This document shows positions 950-63,994 of a DNA stretch of 64,000 nt, in pieces (the stretch's first letter is position 1; every line of letters starts with the position of its first letter). The position numbers were made by a program, and so were the translations under genes. Source of the stretch: a candidate division Zixibacteria bacterium HGW-Zixibacteria-1 (GTDB lineage: Bacteria; Zixibacteria; MSB-5A5; GN15; PGXB01). Location of the stretch: the NCBI GenBank assembly GCA_002838945.1, contig PGXB01000002.1, positions 213,474 to 277,473 on the forward strand, read 5' to 3'. The notes under the pieces were generated by a model that made no database searches, was not told the origin of the DNA, and was given only the letters and a program-made list of their open reading frames with translations.

Positions 950-1780
950 TTACTTCAGCATCATCATCTTCCGGGTATCGGAAAAATCTCCTGCATCCAT
1001 ACGATAGAAATAAATGCCGCTCGCAACCGTCGTGCCGGAATTATCACGGCCGTCCCAAATGACCGACTTGGAACCGGCTTCCTGGAATTCGTCAACCAGG
1101 GTTTTGATCTGCTGACCCAGGACATTATAGATTTCCAGTCTCACTTTGGCTGCATTCGGAAGGTCATAAGCAATCCGAGTCTGCGGGTTAAAAGGATTCG
1201 GAGCATTCTGAGCCAAAGAGAATGATTTCGGAAGAAGATTGTCCTCGGGCACGACTGGAGATGGTGCGAAATTAATTCCCGCGAATTCCGGAGTCAGGCT
1301 TAAACAATTGGAAGAACCATCGACAACTTCAGTATAAACAAGCATCAGACTGTGATTCGGATTCTCCAGCTCAATAGGCGTAATATCGATCGCTTTGCTG
1401 CTCGATGGATCATCGAAGCTGAAGACAAGATTGGCAATAGGCCCGCTTCCGGGAGCCAAATCGGGTTTCTCCCCATCCAGTGCGGGAATGAAACCCAGTA
1501 CGACGGTCCTTTCGTCGTTATTAATGTTGGCCCATTTGAAGTCGAAGCCTTCTGACCTCGTGCCTTCAAAGATGACCTCTTCCAAGGTAACTCCCTCGGA
1601 GAATTCCAAAGGAAGATCCAGGGCAGTCATGGCAACCGCATTGTTTAATTCAATGGGAACAACAACTCGGTCCGCTTCATATCGGACTTTAGGTGCCATA
1701 AGCGAATTCGATTCCGCAGAATATACCGAAGTACAAACCAGGAGTACCAAGGCAATCGTGATGATGCCATAATGCTTCAT
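950..1780 (-). CDS. Secreted cohesin-like protein with FlgD-Ig/T9SS-type C-terminal module
   Basis: A signal peptide (MKHYGIITIALVLLVCTSVYS) leads a ~276-residue exported protein. Residues ~30-140 have the look of a cohesin-type beta-sandwich: VVPIELNN, a hydrophobic LDLPLEFSEGVTL strand and a final GSGPIANLVFSF segment. The C-terminal ~90 residues start at FSLAQNAPNPFNPQTRIAYDL and end in ASGIYFYRMDAG..RKMMMLK, the FlgD Ig-like module that in Bacteroidetes-like bacteria acts as a type IX secretion sorting domain. I chose ATG 1780 because GGGGTGAG (1793-1787) lies six bases ahead of it; the GTG at 1786 would abut that site. Likely cell-surface or extracellular. Monocistronic: own promoter (1949-1977), long leader, own terminator. 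A binding or enzymatic role cannot be read from it. Confidence 0.75.
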   Translation of the reverse strand: MKHYGIITIALVLLVCTSVYSAESNSLMAPKVRYEADRVVVPIELNNAVAMTALDLPLEFSEGVTLEEVIFEGTRSEGFDFKWANINNDERTVVLGFIPALDGEKPDLAPGSGPIANLVFSFDDPSSSKAIDITPIELENPNHSLMLVYTEVVDGSSNCLSLTPEFAGINFAPSPVVPEDNLLPKSFSLAQNAPNPFNPQTRIAYDLPNAAKVRLEIYNVLGQQIKTLVDEFQEAGSKSVIWDGRDNSGTTVASGIYFYRMDAGDFSDTRKMMMLK

Positions 1781-1942
1781 AGACACTCACCCCCCGTTAG
1801 GGTTAAAGGTTTAAGACTATCTAACGGTTTTGTCATAGCAAACGCTCCTTGTCTTGCTAAGTAACCGCTGTTCATCCGCAATACTTGATAGTTACTCTTG
1901 CCAGTGATAAAACGGCGCTGAAAATTCGAGTGAGGATTGCCC
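1781..1942 (-). promoter_or_regulatory. Structured ~160-nt 5' leader of the cohesin-like gene
   Basis: Between the predicted start (~1942) and ATG 1780 lie three consecutive hairpins on the minus strand: AGTAAC (1896-1891)/GTTACT (1865-1860); TAGCAAG (1859-1853)/TTTGCTA (1842-1836), including one G-U pair; and CCGTTAG (1827-1821)/CTAACGG (1800-1794). The third ends directly before the ribosome-binding site. I could not match it to GEMM, TPP, cobalamin, SAM, glycine or lysine riboswitch motifs. A regulatory leader is an inference from length and hairpin packing. Confidence 0.4.
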
Positions 1943-2324: not shown

Positions 2325-4319
2325 GTGTCCGAGAATAATAATTTGGAAAATGAAACTTTCAAGCCATATATCTCGGCCGGTGAATCTGTCGCGGAGGTTA
2401 CGGTTAGAGCCATTGTCCTTGGCAGTATTTTATCCGTGATTTTTGGCGTGGCCAATGCCTACATCGGACTCAAATATGGCATGACGGTTTCGGCGTCGAT
2501 TCCCGCCGCGGTAATATCGATGGCGGTTCTGCGAACTTTATTCCGGCGCAAACGCGCAACCGTCCTTGAAAACAATATTGTCCAGACCGTCGGGTCGGCC
2601 GGCGAATCACTTGCTGCCGGAATCATTTTCACCATACCGGCCTTTTTCATCTGGGCAGCCAACAGCCAACTGGTGGCTGCTGGTTATCATCACGAAATAA
2701 GTAAAATGCAAATCTTCTGGTTGTCGATGCTGGGCGGGGGGCTGGGCATTTTGCTGATGATTCCCCTGCGAAAATATCTTGTCGAAAAGGAGCATGGTAA
2801 GCTGGCCTTCCCGGAAGGCACCGCCTGTGCCGAAATTATTGTCGCGGGCGATGAGGGCGGGAAAAAGGCTAAAACAGTCTTTCTTGGCATCGGAATCGGC
2901 GCATTATATAAGGCGATATTCTATACTCTGCGGCTGTGGTCCGAATCACCGGGGTACAACTTTAAAAAATGGCTCAAGGGAGGAACGATCGGGATGGATG
3001 CCACCCCGGTCCTGCTGGGTGTCGGATATATAATCGGCCCTCGTATTGCCGCCCTGATGATGGCCGGAGCGGTTCTGGGTTATCTCGGAATCAGCCCGTT
3101 GCTGTCATTTATCGGCGATCAGATTCCGGGTATAATTATAGCGCCCGGGACCATCCCTTTGAGTGACATGGATCCGGCACAACTTCGTGATGCCTATATT
3201 AAATATCTCGGCGTCGGGGCGGTTGCACTCGGCGGTTTCGTTTCGCTGGCCAAATCGATCCCGGTAATATTTCACTCCTTTGCCGCCGGCGCCAAAGAAC
3301 TGGTAAGCTCCCGCGCATCGAGAGACAGCAAACTGAGAACCGACCGGGATATGCCCATGTCATATGTGCTGATCGGAACCTTTTTGATCATCGTCGCTAT
3401 CTGGGCTTATCCGGGAACAGAGATGCATTTTATGGGCGCGGTCCTGGCCGTCATTTTCGGCTTCTTCTTTGTGGTGGTGGCGGCACGGATTGTCGGAATT
3501 GTCGGATCATCATCTTCCCCTGTCTCGGGAATGACCATCGCCACATTGCTGGTGACCTGCCTTGTTTTATTAACTTTTGGTGTGTCCGGTGTCAAGGGTA
3601 TGGTTACGGCCATGTCGGTTGGAACGGTCGTGTGCATTGCGGTCTGCCTTTCGGGTGATATTGCACAGGATTTAAAAACGGGCTATTTACTGGGGGCCAC
3701 CCCGGCCAAGCAACAATGGACCGAATTCATCGGCCTTCTCTTCCCGGCTATCGCCATGGGCTTTACCTTGTATATGCTGGGTGACGCTTTCGGATTCGTG
3801 GCAACCGAGCAGACCCCCCATCCGCTTCTGGCTCCGCAGGCAAATGTCATGGCTACTGTTGTGCAGGGAGTCATGAACTCCAACATCCCCTGGCAGCCGA
3901 TTCTTGTCGGCGGCATGGTTGCCCTGGCAGTCGAACTGCTCGGTATTCAATCCCTGCCGTTCGCAATCGGTCTTTATTTGCCGCTGTCATTATCCACCCC
4001 GATCATGGCCGGCGGCGTTCTGGCCATGTTAATAAAGAAATCTTCCAGAGATAAGAAATTATCAAATTCGCGCTTCCAGATGGGCATCCTGTTCGGCTCG
4101 GGACTGGTTGCGGGCGATGCTCTGGTGGCGGTGGTGACGGCATTCCTGATCTCAAGCTGGGGCGGATTCAGGACATTCTTCGATGGACATGAAGGCATGT
4201 TGTCATCACTGACCGGATCCTTCGGGCCATGGGTGTCGCTGATTGCATTTGCGCTTTTGAGTATTTTGTTCTATTATTTGGCCAGATCGTTTGGCTCAAC
4301 CAACAATTCTGATAAATGA
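2325..4319 (+). CDS. OPT family oligopeptide transporter
   Basis: A 664-residue polytopic inner-membrane protein of the oligopeptide transporter (OPT/YSL) superfamily, which moves small peptides or metal chelates with protons. Around 14-16 hydrophobic segments run the length of the chain. Family marks include GLKYGMTVSASIPAAV near residue 47, FPEGTACAEI near 160 and GDIAQDLKTGYLLGATP near 445. Length is normal for bacterial members. The start is GTG, set by AGGAGG four bases upstream. Its TGA overlaps the ATG of the next gene (ATGA, 4316-4319), so the two are probably translationally coupled. Substrate cannot be assigned from sequence alone. Confidence 0.88.
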   Translation: MSENNNLENETFKPYISAGESVAEVTVRAIVLGSILSVIFGVANAYIGLKYGMTVSASIPAAVISMAVLRTLFRRKRATVLENNIVQTVGSAGESLAAGIIFTIPAFFIWAANSQLVAAGYHHEISKMQIFWLSMLGGGLGILLMIPLRKYLVEKEHGKLAFPEGTACAEIIVAGDEGGKKAKTVFLGIGIGALYKAIFYTLRLWSESPGYNFKKWLKGGTIGMDATPVLLGVGYIIGPRIAALMMAGAVLGYLGISPLLSFIGDQIPGIIIAPGTIPLSDMDPAQLRDAYIKYLGVGAVALGGFVSLAKSIPVIFHSFAAGAKELVSSRASRDSKLRTDRDMPMSYVLIGTFLIIVAIWAYPGTEMHFMGAVLAVIFGFFFVVVAARIVGIVGSSSSPVSGMTIATLLVTCLVLLTFGVSGVKGMVTAMSVGTVVCIAVCLSGDIAQDLKTGYLLGATPAKQQWTEFIGLLFPAIAMGFTLYMLGDAFGFVATEQTPHPLLAPQANVMATVVQGVMNSNIPWQPILVGGMVALAVELLGIQSLPFAIGLYLPLSLSTPIMAGGVLAMLIKKSSRDKKLSNSRFQMGILFGSGLVAGDALVAVVTAFLISSWGGFRTFFDGHEGMLSSLTGSFGPWVSLIAFALLSILFYYLARSFGSTNNSDK

Positions 4320-59179: not shown

Positions 59180-61411
59180 TTATTCCACACAACCCGGCAG
59201 CGGGTCGGATCCACCCCTGTACATGTAGGTTATCAAATAGGAAGCATCAAGCAAATTGATGGCGCAGGAGCCGTCGGCATCGACCGCATTCGGGATCGCC
59301 GGAGCCGCCCCGCCTTTATAGAGATAGTTTATTAAAAATGTAATATCCAGAAGGTTCACATTGCCGCTATTATCGGCGTCTCCGGGTATGTAAGGGCTCG
59401 CTTCTACTACCAGAGTGTATGTTCGGGTTTCATTATAGGAACTCATTAAATCTTTGGCATATACGTCGAAATTGAAGGTTCCGGCCTGCGTGGGCATTCC
59501 GGTTATAAATCCTGTCAAACTGTCCAGGGTCAGCCCCAGCGGCAGGGCGCCGCCCGTGATTTTGTAGGAGTGATGATCGGTTCCGCCCTTGGCAACAACC
59601 GAATCAAGATATGGCATGAACTGCTGCGCCGTATCCAGCGGAAACGGTATCAAATGATAGGTCCAGTTGGATTTATAGCTATAACGGTGTATCCATGAAT
59701 CAGGATCAAGCTGAACATTCGTCGGTAACTGGTCGTTTTTCATGATGTAAATGGTGTCACGAACGTCATTGAAAATTACCGTCGTATCCAATCCCGTGGC
59801 ATTGGTAAAGACAATATCGATCGGCATCCTGAATACCAGGGGAGCGGTGGTTTGCCCCTGCCTGAGTTGAAGGTACGTAAAATAACGGCCGTCGGAGGGA
59901 TCATATTCACTCCGGAAGGACCACATGTATTTCGGGAAATAAGTTCCGTATATCCAATCTTCAAAAAAGTAGTCAAGATCCTTCCCGGATACCGTCTCGC
60001 AGATGTCCTGGAATCCGGCGGTAGTGGCATTGCCATACTGAAAATCACTGTTATAATACGCCCGCATGCAATCGAAGAAAACCGAATCGCCGACGATATG
60101 CCGCAGCATATGTAACACCCAGGCGCCTTTGTCATATACCAGCCGACTGAAAATATTCCAGACATCAGTCGTATCGACCACATAAATGGAGCTGCCGTAT
60201 GTATAGAACATGTCGTTCATATAGCTGTGATAGGCCGCCTTGCCGTCTTTGACCTCATAATAAAGCGCCTCGCAGTAAGAGGCAAAACCTTCGTTGAGCC
60301 AGATTTCATGCCAGTTATCGATGGTGATCATATCGCCCCACCACTGGTGCGAAAGTTCATGGACCACAACCGGCTCGGTGAACCCGAAACTGCTCCCGTT
60401 CATAGATGAAACAGTCTGATGTTCCATCGCTCCGCCCCATTCGAAATTCGCATGACCGTATTTTTCGTTCGTAAATGGATACTCTCCGAACAAATCGGCA
60501 AAAACACCAATCGCATACGGTGTGATTCCATAACCGATAAGAGAGGTAGAATACCTGTCCATATATACATGATTGACTATGACCATGGAATCGTTATCGC
60601 CATAATGGTACCAGTCTTCCCAGACAACGTAATTGCTGATAGCCAGCGAAAAAAGGTAGGTCGATATCGGATACCTTTCCTGGTAAGAAAACGTCCAGGT
60701 TCCATCACCGTTGCGAACCGTATCGATCAGGGTCCCGTTGGAGGCACAGTAAAGGTTGGTATCACAGGTAACAAAAATATCCATGGAATCGGCTTTATCA
60801 TCGGGTCGATCCTTACACGGCCACCAGGTTCGGGCCGACATCGGCTCCGACAGTGTCGTTATCACCGGCTGGTTGTTACGGAAATCAAAGGAGAAACCAT
60901 CCAGTCCGGATCCGGTAGGACGACCATGATAGGCGACGGAGAATGAAAAGACTTCGCCATTGCTGTAGGTACGATCAAGTGCCACAATCAGTTTTGTACC
61001 TGAATGCGAAAAGCCCAATTGCCCGGTCGTATTGTAAACCGAATCCGTTGTCAGATTGGCATAAAAATCGAGTTCAACCGTATCAACCGACGCGGCGACA
61101 ACTGTCGCTTCAACCAGAACATCGCCGGAAATCGTGGTATCCGAAAGATGAACGGTAATGTCCACGGTATAAAATCCGACATCATAGTCGTTCTGATTAT
61201 AAAGTGATATCGCCTTATCGGCGGTCGCCGCAAAGGCGCGCGATTTTTCCAGATTTCCGGCCTTCATCTCAGCCATAATTTTATGTAGTTCCGATGGGGT
61301 CATTTTGCTGTAGTCAATCGATTCATCCATCTTATCGAGACTATGGGCGGTGATGGAACACAAAAAAAGTGAGGTAACAAACAGGGCGATTATAGTGAGC
61401 TTCCTTTTCAT
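59180..61411 (-). CDS. Secreted M1 family metallopeptidase with dockerin-like C-terminus
   Basis: A 743-residue exported aminopeptidase-like enzyme. Signal peptide to ~residue 23; M1 N-terminal beta domain; substrate motif GGAMEHQT (326-333), where GxMEN is usual; zinc site HELSHQWWGD (H351, E352, H355) with third ligand E374 in WLNEGF. The C-terminal third has an Ig-like putative domain (GGALPLGLTLDSLTGFITGMPTQAGTF) and two dockerin-like repeats (GDADNSGNVNLLDITFLINY, DADGSCAINLLDASYLITYM), each an EF-hand-like Ca loop. Probably extracellular proteolysis, with the repeats docking it on a cohesin-like partner. Promoter at 61510-61483. Confidence 0.88.
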   Translation of the reverse strand: MKRKLTIIALFVTSLFLCSITAHSLDKMDESIDYSKMTPSELHKIMAEMKAGNLEKSRAFAATADKAISLYNQNDYDVGFYTVDITVHLSDTTISGDVLVEATVVAASVDTVELDFYANLTTDSVYNTTGQLGFSHSGTKLIVALDRTYSNGEVFSFSVAYHGRPTGSGLDGFSFDFRNNQPVITTLSEPMSARTWWPCKDRPDDKADSMDIFVTCDTNLYCASNGTLIDTVRNGDGTWTFSYQERYPISTYLFSLAISNYVVWEDWYHYGDNDSMVIVNHVYMDRYSTSLIGYGITPYAIGVFADLFGEYPFTNEKYGHANFEWGGAMEHQTVSSMNGSSFGFTEPVVVHELSHQWWGDMITIDNWHEIWLNEGFASYCEALYYEVKDGKAAYHSYMNDMFYTYGSSIYVVDTTDVWNIFSRLVYDKGAWVLHMLRHIVGDSVFFDCMRAYYNSDFQYGNATTAGFQDICETVSGKDLDYFFEDWIYGTYFPKYMWSFRSEYDPSDGRYFTYLQLRQGQTTAPLVFRMPIDIVFTNATGLDTTVIFNDVRDTIYIMKNDQLPTNVQLDPDSWIHRYSYKSNWTYHLIPFPLDTAQQFMPYLDSVVAKGGTDHHSYKITGGALPLGLTLDSLTGFITGMPTQAGTFNFDVYAKDLMSSYNETRTYTLVVEASPYIPGDADNSGNVNLLDITFLINYLYKGGAAPAIPNAVDADGSCAINLLDASYLITYMYRGGSDPLPGCVE

Positions 61412-61482
61412 GACGTGTCATTTACTCCCATTTACACGGTTTTGGTCAATAAAATGCTGCCGGTACATCGCAGTATATTCAT

Positions 61483-61510
61483 AAAATAATCCTATTTTCC
61501 AATACGTCAA
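61483..61510 (-). promoter_or_regulatory. Promoter of the M1 peptidase gene
   Basis: Minus strand TTGACG (61510-61505), 16-bp spacer, TATTTT (61488-61483). Confidence 0.55.
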
Positions 61511-61601
61511 GGACTTATATAAATATCGGCTATTTCATATCCATGTTTATATGGATTACGGCCGGAAAAAACCTTTCGCGAAAATATAATTCTCCAACCG
61601 C

Positions 61602-61634
61602 AAAAAAAGACCGCCCCGGTGGGCGGCCCTTTTT
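61602..61634 (-). terminator. Terminator of the Ig-repeat dockerin gene
   Basis: Minus strand CCGCCC (626-621 of this kilobase), four-base loop, GGGCGG (616-611), flanked by G/C and A/T pairs, then seven T (61608-61602). Short but GC-rich stem 21 bases past the stop codon. Confidence 0.75.
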
Positions 61635-61654
61635 GGATTTATCCAAGAGATTGT

Positions 61655-63994
61655 CTAATAAGGATTTCCGCAGATTGGCTGACCGTCATGATAGATATAG
61701 TCTATCAAAATTGTAATATCAATCAGGTTGACCAGCAGATCGCAATTGCAGTCCCCCACTGATTTCATTGGTTTGGGTTCCAACCCGCCCTTATAAAGAT
61801 ATTTTATCAAATAGGCGATATCCAGAATATTCAATGACCCGTTCCAGTCGGCATCACCGTAGAATTTCCAGATGCTTATATCGAGTACGAGCGGGTACGG
61901 CGAATTGCTGGCCGAATCGGAAACTATAAGGGCAGTATCCTTATAATAGCCAAACGTCATCCCATAACCATTTGGCATCAATCTGAGATTCCAGGGATAG
62001 GCTTCTTCCTGTTCCTCATCTTTGACGTCAATGCCAAAATCCATCCAGGGCATATCTTCCTGAATGTACCAGTCCATGCATCCGGGATGGACATTATTAA
62101 GAGTGACAAAGAACTGCCGGCCCACCCGGTTTTCCTGCGCATAAAAACTGAGGTTATTACGATTCAGGTAAATCAGAGGGGCAATATCGGTTTCTTTTAT
62201 CGTGAGTGTCAGCGTCAGCGATTCCGGGGTATTGACGGCATTATAAGCCGAAATGACAATAGTATCATAATAGACGCCCGGGAGCATGTTTTTGTAATCA
62301 AATGACAGCGTGATTATTTTCGGGGCCAGGGCGGAAGTGTCACTTGGTATGAGCCAGTCGGAATTCCAGCTTAAATCGAAGGTGAAAGGCACGGAACCGC
62401 CATTGTAAACCGTGAAAAACGGCGGCGGCGGTGGATTCATTCCCTGCCCGCATTCATAAAGGGCGGCATTAATGGTATCTTTGCTGACAATAATTTTGGC
62501 CGGATCCGAATAACAATGATAATCAAGAATCAGCATCTGCGGCGAATTGGGCGCCTCAAGAGAATACGCCCAAATAGTATCAGTGTAAGACATCGAAAAT
62601 CCGCAGTAAACTGAATCAAAAGTAATCGCCACCAATTGCGGCACCGCTCCGGAATCGGGCGTCAAAGAGGCAATCCGTGGTGAGTTTTCCTCAAGGTAAA
62701 AATTCATGGCTCCGGCGCCACCATTGTAAACCTCAAAATAACGGGTTTCCGGGACCGGCGTATCGGAATCGACCGCCACGAACATATAGCCGGGATTCAA
62801 GCCGAGAATCGGCAAACTGGATGCAACCTGAAGTCTGACCGCCGCCTTTTGCGGAGTGTTGGTGGCCCCGGGCGCGGAAACCACAACAGTATCATAATAA
62901 AAACCGTAGGAAAGCCCGGTTATATCCACTGACAGCGTTATCACGCCATAATCCACCCCGCTGCTGGGGGTCAATGTCAGCCAGCTCTTGCTCTTGGTGG
63001 CGGTCCAGTTAAGCGTTCCCCCGCCGATGTTGTCCACAGTAAGATACTGGTCCGAGGGATTGGCGGAATCAACAATGGCGTTAAAACTAAAAAATGTCTG
63101 CGATAGGTCAATGGTTGCAGGCGGCTCGGATAATATCAGATGAATCGGGATCAGAACCGGATTATTGGTAGCATTGGGATCGCTGACCGTAATGGTATCA
63201 TAGTAATTACCCGCCCCAAGGCCGATGGTATTAACAAACACCTGAACATTGGAAGGTGCAGTACCAAAAGCGGGTGACATTCCCACCCACGATGAATTCC
63301 AGGCGGCCGTCCAGTTGAGGGTTCCGACGCCGGTGTTGGTAATATGCAGAAGCTGAGCGCTGGGGGCTGATTGACCGGCGGTCCCTTCAAATAGAAAACT
63401 TCCAGGAGCGACACTTATTTCGGGATCTTCCGGCATTACTCCAATTTCCCAGCAGTAAGGGCCGTTGAAAGTGGTGGAAAAATCAAAAAGCCAGTCAAAT
63501 TTCCCCGGCGGTACCTGGTTGGGAATACTGCAGGAATCAATACAGAAAATACCCTCCTGATTGATCTGAAGGGCAAATTGAATGTTTTTTTGCTCTCCCA
63601 GACCAAACGGCCATCCCGAAATCGATACGGCCGTATGATTAATAGTATCACCCAGATTACCGTCAAAATTGAAACCGGTCCATTGGTTCAGAACCGACCA
63701 ATAAGACAGGAAAGATGGTGACATCGTAATGGAGTTAAATGGCCCCAAACCACCCACATCCCTGTGAGTCACGGTGGTTATGCCCTGGGGGCTGTAAAAG
63801 ACGAAGGGCATACTGTAGCCAAGGTGCTCGGTGCCGTCATTGTTATTCATATAAATATCCACGGTAAATGGCTGTCCGATTTCAACCAGTCCGGGGAGAA
63901 GTAGCGGCGAGGCTTTGGCGCTGATAACCGCAGCCTGGCTCTGAATTGTCAAAATCATTAAAAGGATTGGAAGAAGCAGCAAATAACGCTTCAT
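61655..63994 (-). CDS. Secreted cohesin-like/Ig-repeat protein with dockerin-like C-terminus
   Basis: A 779-residue exported protein (signal peptide MKRYLLLLPILLMILTIQSQA). Residues ~20-190 look cohesin-like (GQPFTVDIYMNNNDGTEHLGYSMPFVFYSP). Then come five or so beta-sandwich repeats of ~95 residues of BACON type, each with an F-x-W-T-A..S-W or similar strand and Y-Y-D-T-I-x-V-S (GVGTLNWTAAWNSSWVGMSP, GGGTLNWTATKSKSWLTLTP). Two dockerin-like repeats end it (YGDADWNGSLNILDIAYLIKYLYKGG, CDLLVNLIDITILIDYI). No catalytic motif: a scaffold or surface adhesin is likely. ATG 63994 is close to the window edge; its ribosome-binding site is outside, so a start further upstream is possible. Confidence 0.7.
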   Translation of the reverse strand: MKRYLLLLPILLMILTIQSQAAVISAKASPLLLPGLVEIGQPFTVDIYMNNNDGTEHLGYSMPFVFYSPQGITTVTHRDVGGLGPFNSITMSPSFLSYWSVLNQWTGFNFDGNLGDTINHTAVSISGWPFGLGEQKNIQFALQINQEGIFCIDSCSIPNQVPPGKFDWLFDFSTTFNGPYCWEIGVMPEDPEISVAPGSFLFEGTAGQSAPSAQLLHITNTGVGTLNWTAAWNSSWVGMSPAFGTAPSNVQVFVNTIGLGAGNYYDTITVSDPNATNNPVLIPIHLILSEPPATIDLSQTFFSFNAIVDSANPSDQYLTVDNIGGGTLNWTATKSKSWLTLTPSSGVDYGVITLSVDITGLSYGFYYDTVVVSAPGATNTPQKAAVRLQVASSLPILGLNPGYMFVAVDSDTPVPETRYFEVYNGGAGAMNFYLEENSPRIASLTPDSGAVPQLVAITFDSVYCGFSMSYTDTIWAYSLEAPNSPQMLILDYHCYSDPAKIIVSKDTINAALYECGQGMNPPPPPFFTVYNGGSVPFTFDLSWNSDWLIPSDTSALAPKIITLSFDYKNMLPGVYYDTIVISAYNAVNTPESLTLTLTIKETDIAPLIYLNRNNLSFYAQENRVGRQFFVTLNNVHPGCMDWYIQEDMPWMDFGIDVKDEEQEEAYPWNLRLMPNGYGMTFGYYKDTALIVSDSASNSPYPLVLDISIWKFYGDADWNGSLNILDIAYLIKYLYKGGLEPKPMKSVGDCNCDLLVNLIDITILIDYIYHDGQPICGNPY

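Follow-up and report, generated by a model that had tools for sequence, protein, structure and literature searches.

Dockerin-tagged exported peptidases and T9SS-tailed cohesin proteins of a probable surface docking system in Zixibacteria

We analyzed a 64,000-nucleotide stretch of DNA (hereafter the window; C2:213474-277473) from a Zixibacteria genome of 3.83 Mb that is 96.7% complete, and focused on three proteins (P1, P2, and P3) whose positions had been placed correctly in a sequence-only reading of the window. These proteins, their modules, and a transporter gene next to P3 are as follows:

59180..61411, minus strand: P1, exported peptidase of family M1 (743 aa) that includes a He_PIG module and ends in a dockerin
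59954..60376, minus strand: P1 Peptidase_M1 catalytic stretch, aa 346-486 (106 bits)
59222..59386, minus strand: P1 dockerin type I (PF00404), aa 676-730 (33.4 bits, Pfam cut-off 22.9)
61655..63994, minus strand: P2, exported, with a predicted cohesin fold, BACON_2 repeats, and a dockerin, 779 aa from the ATG at 63994
63440..63940, minus strand: P2 N-terminal module, aa 19-185, predicted divergent cohesin fold (AF2, Foldseek, VIA-align, hhalign)
63176..63421, minus strand: P2 best BACON_2 stretch, aa 192-273 (Pfam)
61694..61861, minus strand: P2 dockerin type I (PF00404), aa 712-767 (26.9 bits, Pfam cut-off 22.9)
950..1786, minus strand: P3 (278 aa), one cohesin and a T9SS sorting tail; proposed to be a surface anchor (socket)
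1241..1714, minus strand: P3 cohesin domain, aa 25-182 (AF2, Foldseek, VIA-align, family profile A3)
962..1201, minus strand: P3 T9SS type A sorting tail, aa 196-275 (TIGR04183, FlgD_ig)
2325..4319, plus strand: OPT family oligopeptide transporter, neighbor of P3

P1 also carries the M1 N-terminal domain (Pfam), and the nearest relatives of its peptidase are found in Candidatus Zixiibacteriota MAGs. The paired dockerin-like Ca-loops that had been noticed at the ends of P1 and P2 were borne out, with Dockerin_1 scoring above the Pfam cut-off in both proteins and direct sequence reading revealing two 12-residue Ca-type loops in each (DADNSGNVNLLD and DADGSCAINLLD in P1; DADWNGSLNILD and DCNCDLLVNLID in P2). 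The next gene past the window (D006; C2:277904-280753; L125:5910-8759) encodes the N-terminal module of P2, TSP3-like repeats, and a dockerin; as it adjoins P2, the locus holds a run of three consecutive dockerin genes. The D006 protein also gave a match, below cut-off, to the model of the cohesion protein MtsC. The T9SS-type tail previously ascribed to P3 was confirmed by NCBIfam TIGR04183 (33 bits, cut-off 23) and by Pfam FlgD_ig (41.8 bits, above its cut-off), while Por_Secre_tail (PF18962) scored slightly below its cut-off (25.7 bits, cut-off 27).

We then folded the P3 domain and the N-terminal domain of P2 with AlphaFold2 from alignments of their relatives, and both models adopted the cohesin fold that the sequence-only reading had suspected. 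For the P3 model (pLDDT 81, pTM 0.78), the top 25 Foldseek rows against the PDB were all chains from entries of a cohesin, a cohesin-like module, or a cohesin with a dockerin, and VIA-align gave a Z of 14.7 over 142 residues. For the P2 model (pLDDT 94.9, pTM 0.89), the first Foldseek rank was a type II cohesin (E 8.3e-6, modest TM-scores of 0.59/0.53) and the seventh a fibrillar-adhesin CLIPPER domain, and the VIA-align Z was 11.9 over 128 residues with cohesins in all of the first 30 listed entries. The Pfam Cohesin model gave no match to either domain at E values up to 1, and a phmmer search of the PDB with the single P3 sequence gave none. A profile built from P3 and 22 relatives (A3) retrieved cohesins from the PDB, the best being the cellulosome-anchoring protein 3ul4_A (E 3.5e-12). 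The profile of the P2 N-module family returned no cohesin from the PDB and aligned with A3 at an hhalign probability of 94.5. Thus, by family and predicted fold the P3 domain is a cohesin, while the P2 module is cohesin-like by predicted fold and probably a cohesin by descent as well. The P2 module belongs to a divergent cohesin-fold family that may be no socket at all, and P3 and two other families are better anchor candidates. P2-type modules were detected in 34 of 60 genomes and in only 2 of the 26 outside the window's order, for which reason the P2 N-module was dropped as the main socket. Open reading frames of about 190-220 aa with little besides this module were also seen in several genomes of the order (L280, L281, L284-L289, L292, and others).

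Counting both modules across the whole genome, we detected at least 109 Dockerin_1 matches in 105 ORFs (150 of 185 candidates scored), and a full-length dockerin ended within 17 residues of the C-terminus in 88 of the 105. Profiles derived from this genome's own copies placed cohesin-fold domains on 17 of the dockerin ORFs and on 13 ORFs with a T9SS tail. Of these domains, 16 belonged to cohesin-A, 10 to cohesin-B, and 12 to the P2 type (one T026 stretch being counted under both cohesin-A and cohesin-B). The Pfam Cohesin model by itself matched 4 times in the genome. Three was the largest number of cohesin-fold domains per protein among the 158 collected dockerin or tail ORFs. T9SS or FlgD-type tails were present on 53 ORFs, a count that takes in matches below Pfam cut-offs and leaves out the FlgD-type C5:67077 (233 aa, probably FlgD itself). 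By the genome's own tail and dockerin profiles, no ORF carried both tags (dockerin on 0 of 53 tail ORFs, tail on 0 of 105 dockerin ORFs); the dockerin and the T9SS tail are alternative, mutually exclusive C-terminal tags. Dockerin-like stretches could be discerned by eye, below threshold, in some T9SS-tailed cohesin-B proteins such as T027. In another genome (G034), a single protein (L254:407-2518) had both a cohesin and a T9SS tail as well as a dockerin-profile match in its interior, an arrangement not seen in the window's genome by its own profiles. By a crude hydrophobicity measure, ORFs with complete N-termini began with a signal-like stretch in 87 of 102 cases for the dockerin set and in 47 of 51 for the tail set, compared with 14 of 39 window ORFs of at least 200 aa.

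The dockerin ORFs are rich in peptidases, with about 35 peptidase-family matches in Pfam on the 105 ORFs; these are matches and not proteins, and one protein may count under overlapping families. They comprised S8 (8), M28 (5), M14 (4), C1 (4), C25 (2), C10 (2), M4 (2), M6 (2), and M23 (2), with M1, M12, S41, and trypsin-like peptidases once each. No glycoside hydrolase family appeared among the Pfam families listed for these ORFs, 18 low-ranked entries lying beyond the list. Repeat modules were also present on these ORFs, namely TSP3 (12/105), PKD_4 (9/105), and FG-GAP_3 (9/105). The sequence-only reading had hinted at a non-cellulosomal, protein-degrading or adhesive surface assembly. Its protein-degrading side is strengthened by the peptidase-rich, dockerin-tagged secretome, by the T9SS-tailed cohesins, and by the joint presence and absence of the modules across the phylum, while its adhesive side may be reflected in the repeat modules; the surface assembly itself stays a proposal.

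The dockerins are close to uniform. We considered the 84 C-terminal dockerins in which both loops were found by rule (of the 88, three lacked the second and one the first), and at least 71 of 84 first loops and at least 71 of 84 second loops fitted D-x-[ND]-x-[DNS]-x3-N-x2-D. In C-terminal dockerins, the two repeats shared 64% identity over 18 helix positions, and the five residues from loop position 10 (helix start) read [IL]-L-D-[VI]-T in 46 of the 84 first repeats and in 43 of the 84 second ones. In clostridial dockerins, these helix-start positions decide partner choice. A C-terminal Cys was present in 69 of 84; it was accompanied by a second Cys ahead of loop 1 in 41, by one within loop 2 or immediately ahead of it in 16, by both in 8, and by neither in 4, the two partner sites being alternative (exclusivity p 1e-6); of the 15 dockerins lacking the C-terminal Cys, 9 had neither of the other two. 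Similarly, of 35 M1 dockerins from other genomes that fitted the loop rule, 34 had the C-terminal Cys, each with a partner site. Two alternative Cys pairs seem to staple the C-terminal end of the dockerin through a putative disulfide, as in the window at 59180-59386.

We further examined which cohesin proteins could serve as anchors. Three short T9SS-tailed cohesin types, namely P3-type, single-cohesin T014-type (T014 at C5:34576-35475), and double-cohesin T013-type (T013 at C4:28831-30150), recur in relatives from the window's order and measure 278-439 aa, with one or two cohesins and a tail. Cohesin ORFs of about 270-340 aa recur over the 60 genomes, and 22 of them, chosen by this length from 20 of about 30 listed loci (21 of about 270-300 aa and one of 703), were inspected, a set outside which the large multi-domain cohesin proteins lie. 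A T9SS tail ended 19 of the 22, and the other three (L259, L260, L270) looked lipoprotein-like by eye, which makes cohesin lipoproteins a possible second anchoring route in other Zixibacteria. Among relatives that were likewise chosen by length and all came from the window's family or order (n = 20), cohesin and tail were combined in 13 of 13 P3-type proteins (42-65% identity to P3), and the tail was present in six of seven double-cohesin T013 relatives, the seventh ending at a contig end. The OPT transporter gene adjoined the P3 relative in 9 of the 13 P3-type loci (L301-L313); of the four without this neighbor, one stops at a contig end and three are long enough to show it. The ORF at 3-593 of the window was kept in 8 of the 13. 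Moreover, the genome encodes the T9SS translocon component SprA, with SprA_N on a 1997-aa ORF (E 1.4e-26).

We next surveyed 132 Zixibacteria genomes, using the A3 profile for cohesin and Pfam Dockerin_1 for dockerin, and found both modules in 126, neither in five (G024, G036, G059, G063, G129), cohesin alone in none, and dockerin alone in one (G130, a single marginal match, E 3.2e-4). Fisher's test of this co-occurrence gave 1.9e-8, with the six exceptional genomes falling in two families (f9, f13) and G063 being 52% complete, so that phylogenetic independence is low and about two independent cases are represented. In a smaller sample of 60 genomes, SprA was present in 59, including three module-free genomes (G024, G036, G059), and T9SS is thus not what differs. 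No SprA_N match was found in G040 (93% complete), which has at least 85 dockerin matches. Dockerin-bearing genomes of this sample had from 3 matches upwards (median 24 with zeros included, top counts at least 88), counts that are lower bounds (top at least 88 in the 60-genome and at least 44 in the 132-genome survey) and were used as presence or absence. The numbers of dockerins and cohesins per genome were not proportional (rho 0.19, p 0.14, top dockerin counts at least 88). With Pfam Cohesin alone, Fisher's test over 60 genomes gave 0.005, G053 having dockerin without cohesin and G059 a weak cohesin (E 2.2e-4) without dockerin; the A3 profile gave 3 matches in G053 and none in G059. Chance or mis-called modules were ruled out, given scores above curated cut-offs and recurrence across the phylum.

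From this joint presence we infer that cohesins and dockerins probably bind each other, and we regard the following docking reading as likely, if well short of certain: T9SS would equip the outer membrane with a small number of cohesin sockets, to which peptidases, once exported, would attach by their dockerins. T9SS would export the P3-type, T014-type, and T013-type proteins and fix them on the outer membrane, some lineages using cohesin lipoproteins as anchors instead. The plugs would be the near-uniform dockerins of roughly a hundred exported proteins, P1 and many other peptidases included, so that, in this proposal, the peptidases stay at the cell surface. Released peptides might then be imported, the P3 gene adjoining an oligopeptide transporter gene, and P2 and other proteins that combine a cohesin fold with a dockerin could act as adaptors or stalks. 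If this is true, such a T9SS-anchored, peptidase-laden arrangement across the phylum, cellulosome-like but apparently serving the use of protein and not of cellulose, would explain what many proteins with dockerin domains do in uncultured bacteria, hint at the way these organisms live on protein, and supply further binding pairs to protein display. Several observations count against docking as drawn here: the cohesin folds on dockerin ORFs are not predicted by a simple split into sockets and plugs, dockerin and cohesin numbers per genome do not scale with each other, the genomes lacking both modules fall in two families, some T9SS-tailed cohesin-B proteins have dockerin-like stretches, G040 has many dockerins and no SprA match, three sufficiently long loci have no transporter neighbor, and docking as such does not explain how dockerin proteins without a T9SS tail cross the outer membrane. 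In a broader proposal, the dockerin would be the general surface address tag of Zixibacteria, replacing the T9SS tail, with a few T9SS-installed receptors of one or two cohesins, disulfide-stapled dockerins on many exported proteins (about a hundred in the window's genome, fewer elsewhere), and P2-like adaptors. This would make it the equivalent, among diderm bacteria and throughout the phylum, of a cellulosome that feeds on protein; the proposal is tentative, its chances standing somewhat under even.

The exchange of tags can be followed on the M1 peptidases. Among 79 M1 loci, three had no M1 ORF by motif (L051, L064, L099), leaving 76 rows. Loci labelled Zixibacteria (n = 40) carried a dockerin in 35 cases, a T9SS tail in 1, and neither in 4, and those of other named groups (n = 26) a T9SS tail in 21, a dockerin in 4, and neither in 1; one of these four dockerin loci, labelled Ignavibacterium, sits among Zixibacteria in the tree. 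Loci without a group name had 7 dockerins and 3 T9SS tails. In the five of 76 rows with neither tail, two ORFs run past the contig end (L073, L082), one stops early, although its tblastn match extends to a dockerin (L065), and one has a dockerin-like end below threshold (L075); the fifth locus (L036) has two M1 ORFs, of which the better-scoring one, without a dockerin match, was used in the tree and the other has a dockerin. On well-supported branches of the M1-domain tree, the T9SS label changed at least 4 times and the dockerin label at least 7 times, some of the latter changes stemming from rows with neither label. These label changes indicate that the tail switches while the enzyme stays constant, and related phyla mostly bear a T9SS tail in the slot where the Zixibacteria M1 peptidase bears a dockerin.

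This exchange is also what the strongest rival to docking would lead one to expect, namely that the dockerin works at the C-terminus as a signal for sorting or secretion, equivalent in function to the T9SS tail and recognized by a machine in the outer membrane, with the cohesins incidental. The C-terminal position of the dockerin in most ORFs and its exclusion of the T9SS tail fit this export-tag explanation too, and another outer-membrane route for dockerin proteins is not known. However, the dockerin tracks the cohesin over the 132 genomes while SprA persists in the three module-free ones, and the similar helix residues of the two repeats are expected of a two-sided binding module. We therefore consider this rival unlikely as the whole explanation, and an export role could be additional to docking.

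A cohesin fold occurs on 17 of the 105 dockerin ORFs, in eight of them directly before the dockerin. This arrangement, together with the C-terminal Coh1-Doc1 unit described for the scaffoldin of Acetivibrio mesophilus (PMC11557425) and the TSP3, PKD, and FG-GAP repeats carried by some of the dockerin ORFs, would suit an extracellular fiber or matrix in which P2 and the 16 others are joined head to tail or in branches and the peptidases ride as passengers. Such a chain is quite improbable, as P2-type modules show the patchy distribution given above, against nearly universal dockerins, and ORFs of about 200 aa with this module also exist, so that the P2 module is not the general partner. Even less probable, with only a slim chance in our estimate, are inert beta-sandwich stalks with no pairing at all, where dockerins would do nothing besides stabilizing C-termini via calcium and disulfides. 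The adjacency of cohesin folds to either C-terminal tag is compatible with stalks, and the Cys pairing suggests a stapled, stable end; yet the modules are jointly present or absent, and short proteins of cohesin plus tail are conserved across genera. Docking thus remains our preferred reading.

Cohesins and dockerins are most familiar as the assembly modules of cellulose-degrading clostridia, whose cellulosomes have the anchoring cohesins OlpA, OlpC, and SdbA, SLH or sortase anchors, plant-wall glycosidases, and long scaffoldins. Like them, the Zixibacteria have a cohesin fold on proposed surface anchors, as judged from PDB matches, and a uniform dockerin on many exported enzymes; they differ in their T9SS tails and in their many peptidases. 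P3 resembles T9SS type A cargo (Por_Secre_tail), as do about 50 more ORFs of the genome that bear a tail of this kind or the FlgD_ig end akin to it, whereas on P1 and other peptidases a dockerin occupies that C-terminal slot.

In the literature searched, we found no paper on Zixibacteria with dockerin, Zixiibacteriota with cohesin, or Zixibacteria with type IX secretion. A T9SS-anchored cohesin/dockerin display has already been proposed in Cloacimonadota, and the putative Zixibacteria system would be a variant of this kind: Candidatus Stygibacter has a proposed cellulosome-like complex with a T9SS-anchored scaffoldin and dockerin enzymes (PMC8542988). Common to both are dockerins on exported peptidases (S8 and C25 in Stygibacter) and surface-attached cohesins, the latter proposed for Zixibacteria. 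Stygibacter has one 3,755-aa scaffoldin with tandem cohesins, CBM2/CBM3, and a C-terminal surface-attachment domain, as well as GH18/GH57 enzymes (PMC8542988), in contrast to the anchors of 278-439 aa, the 105 dockerin ORFs in a single genome, the absence of a glycosidase among the families listed, and the phylum-wide survey reported here. In ANME archaea, both modules likewise lie outside cellulose degradation, some with S-layer domains, and the cargo differs in being substrate-binding proteins; T9SS is not mentioned in the consulted part of that account (PMC9012536). The Coh1-Doc1 scaffoldin of A. mesophilus includes an S8-peptidase-like domain (PMC11557425), and non-cellulosomal dockerins are described in Omnitrophota by a source whose consulted part adds nothing on anchors (PMC10066038).

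As a minor observation on the assembly, closely similar truncated dockerin ORFs of 177 aa lie at two contig ends (C6:113517-114050 and C19:3-536), perhaps marking a repeat that broke the assembly.
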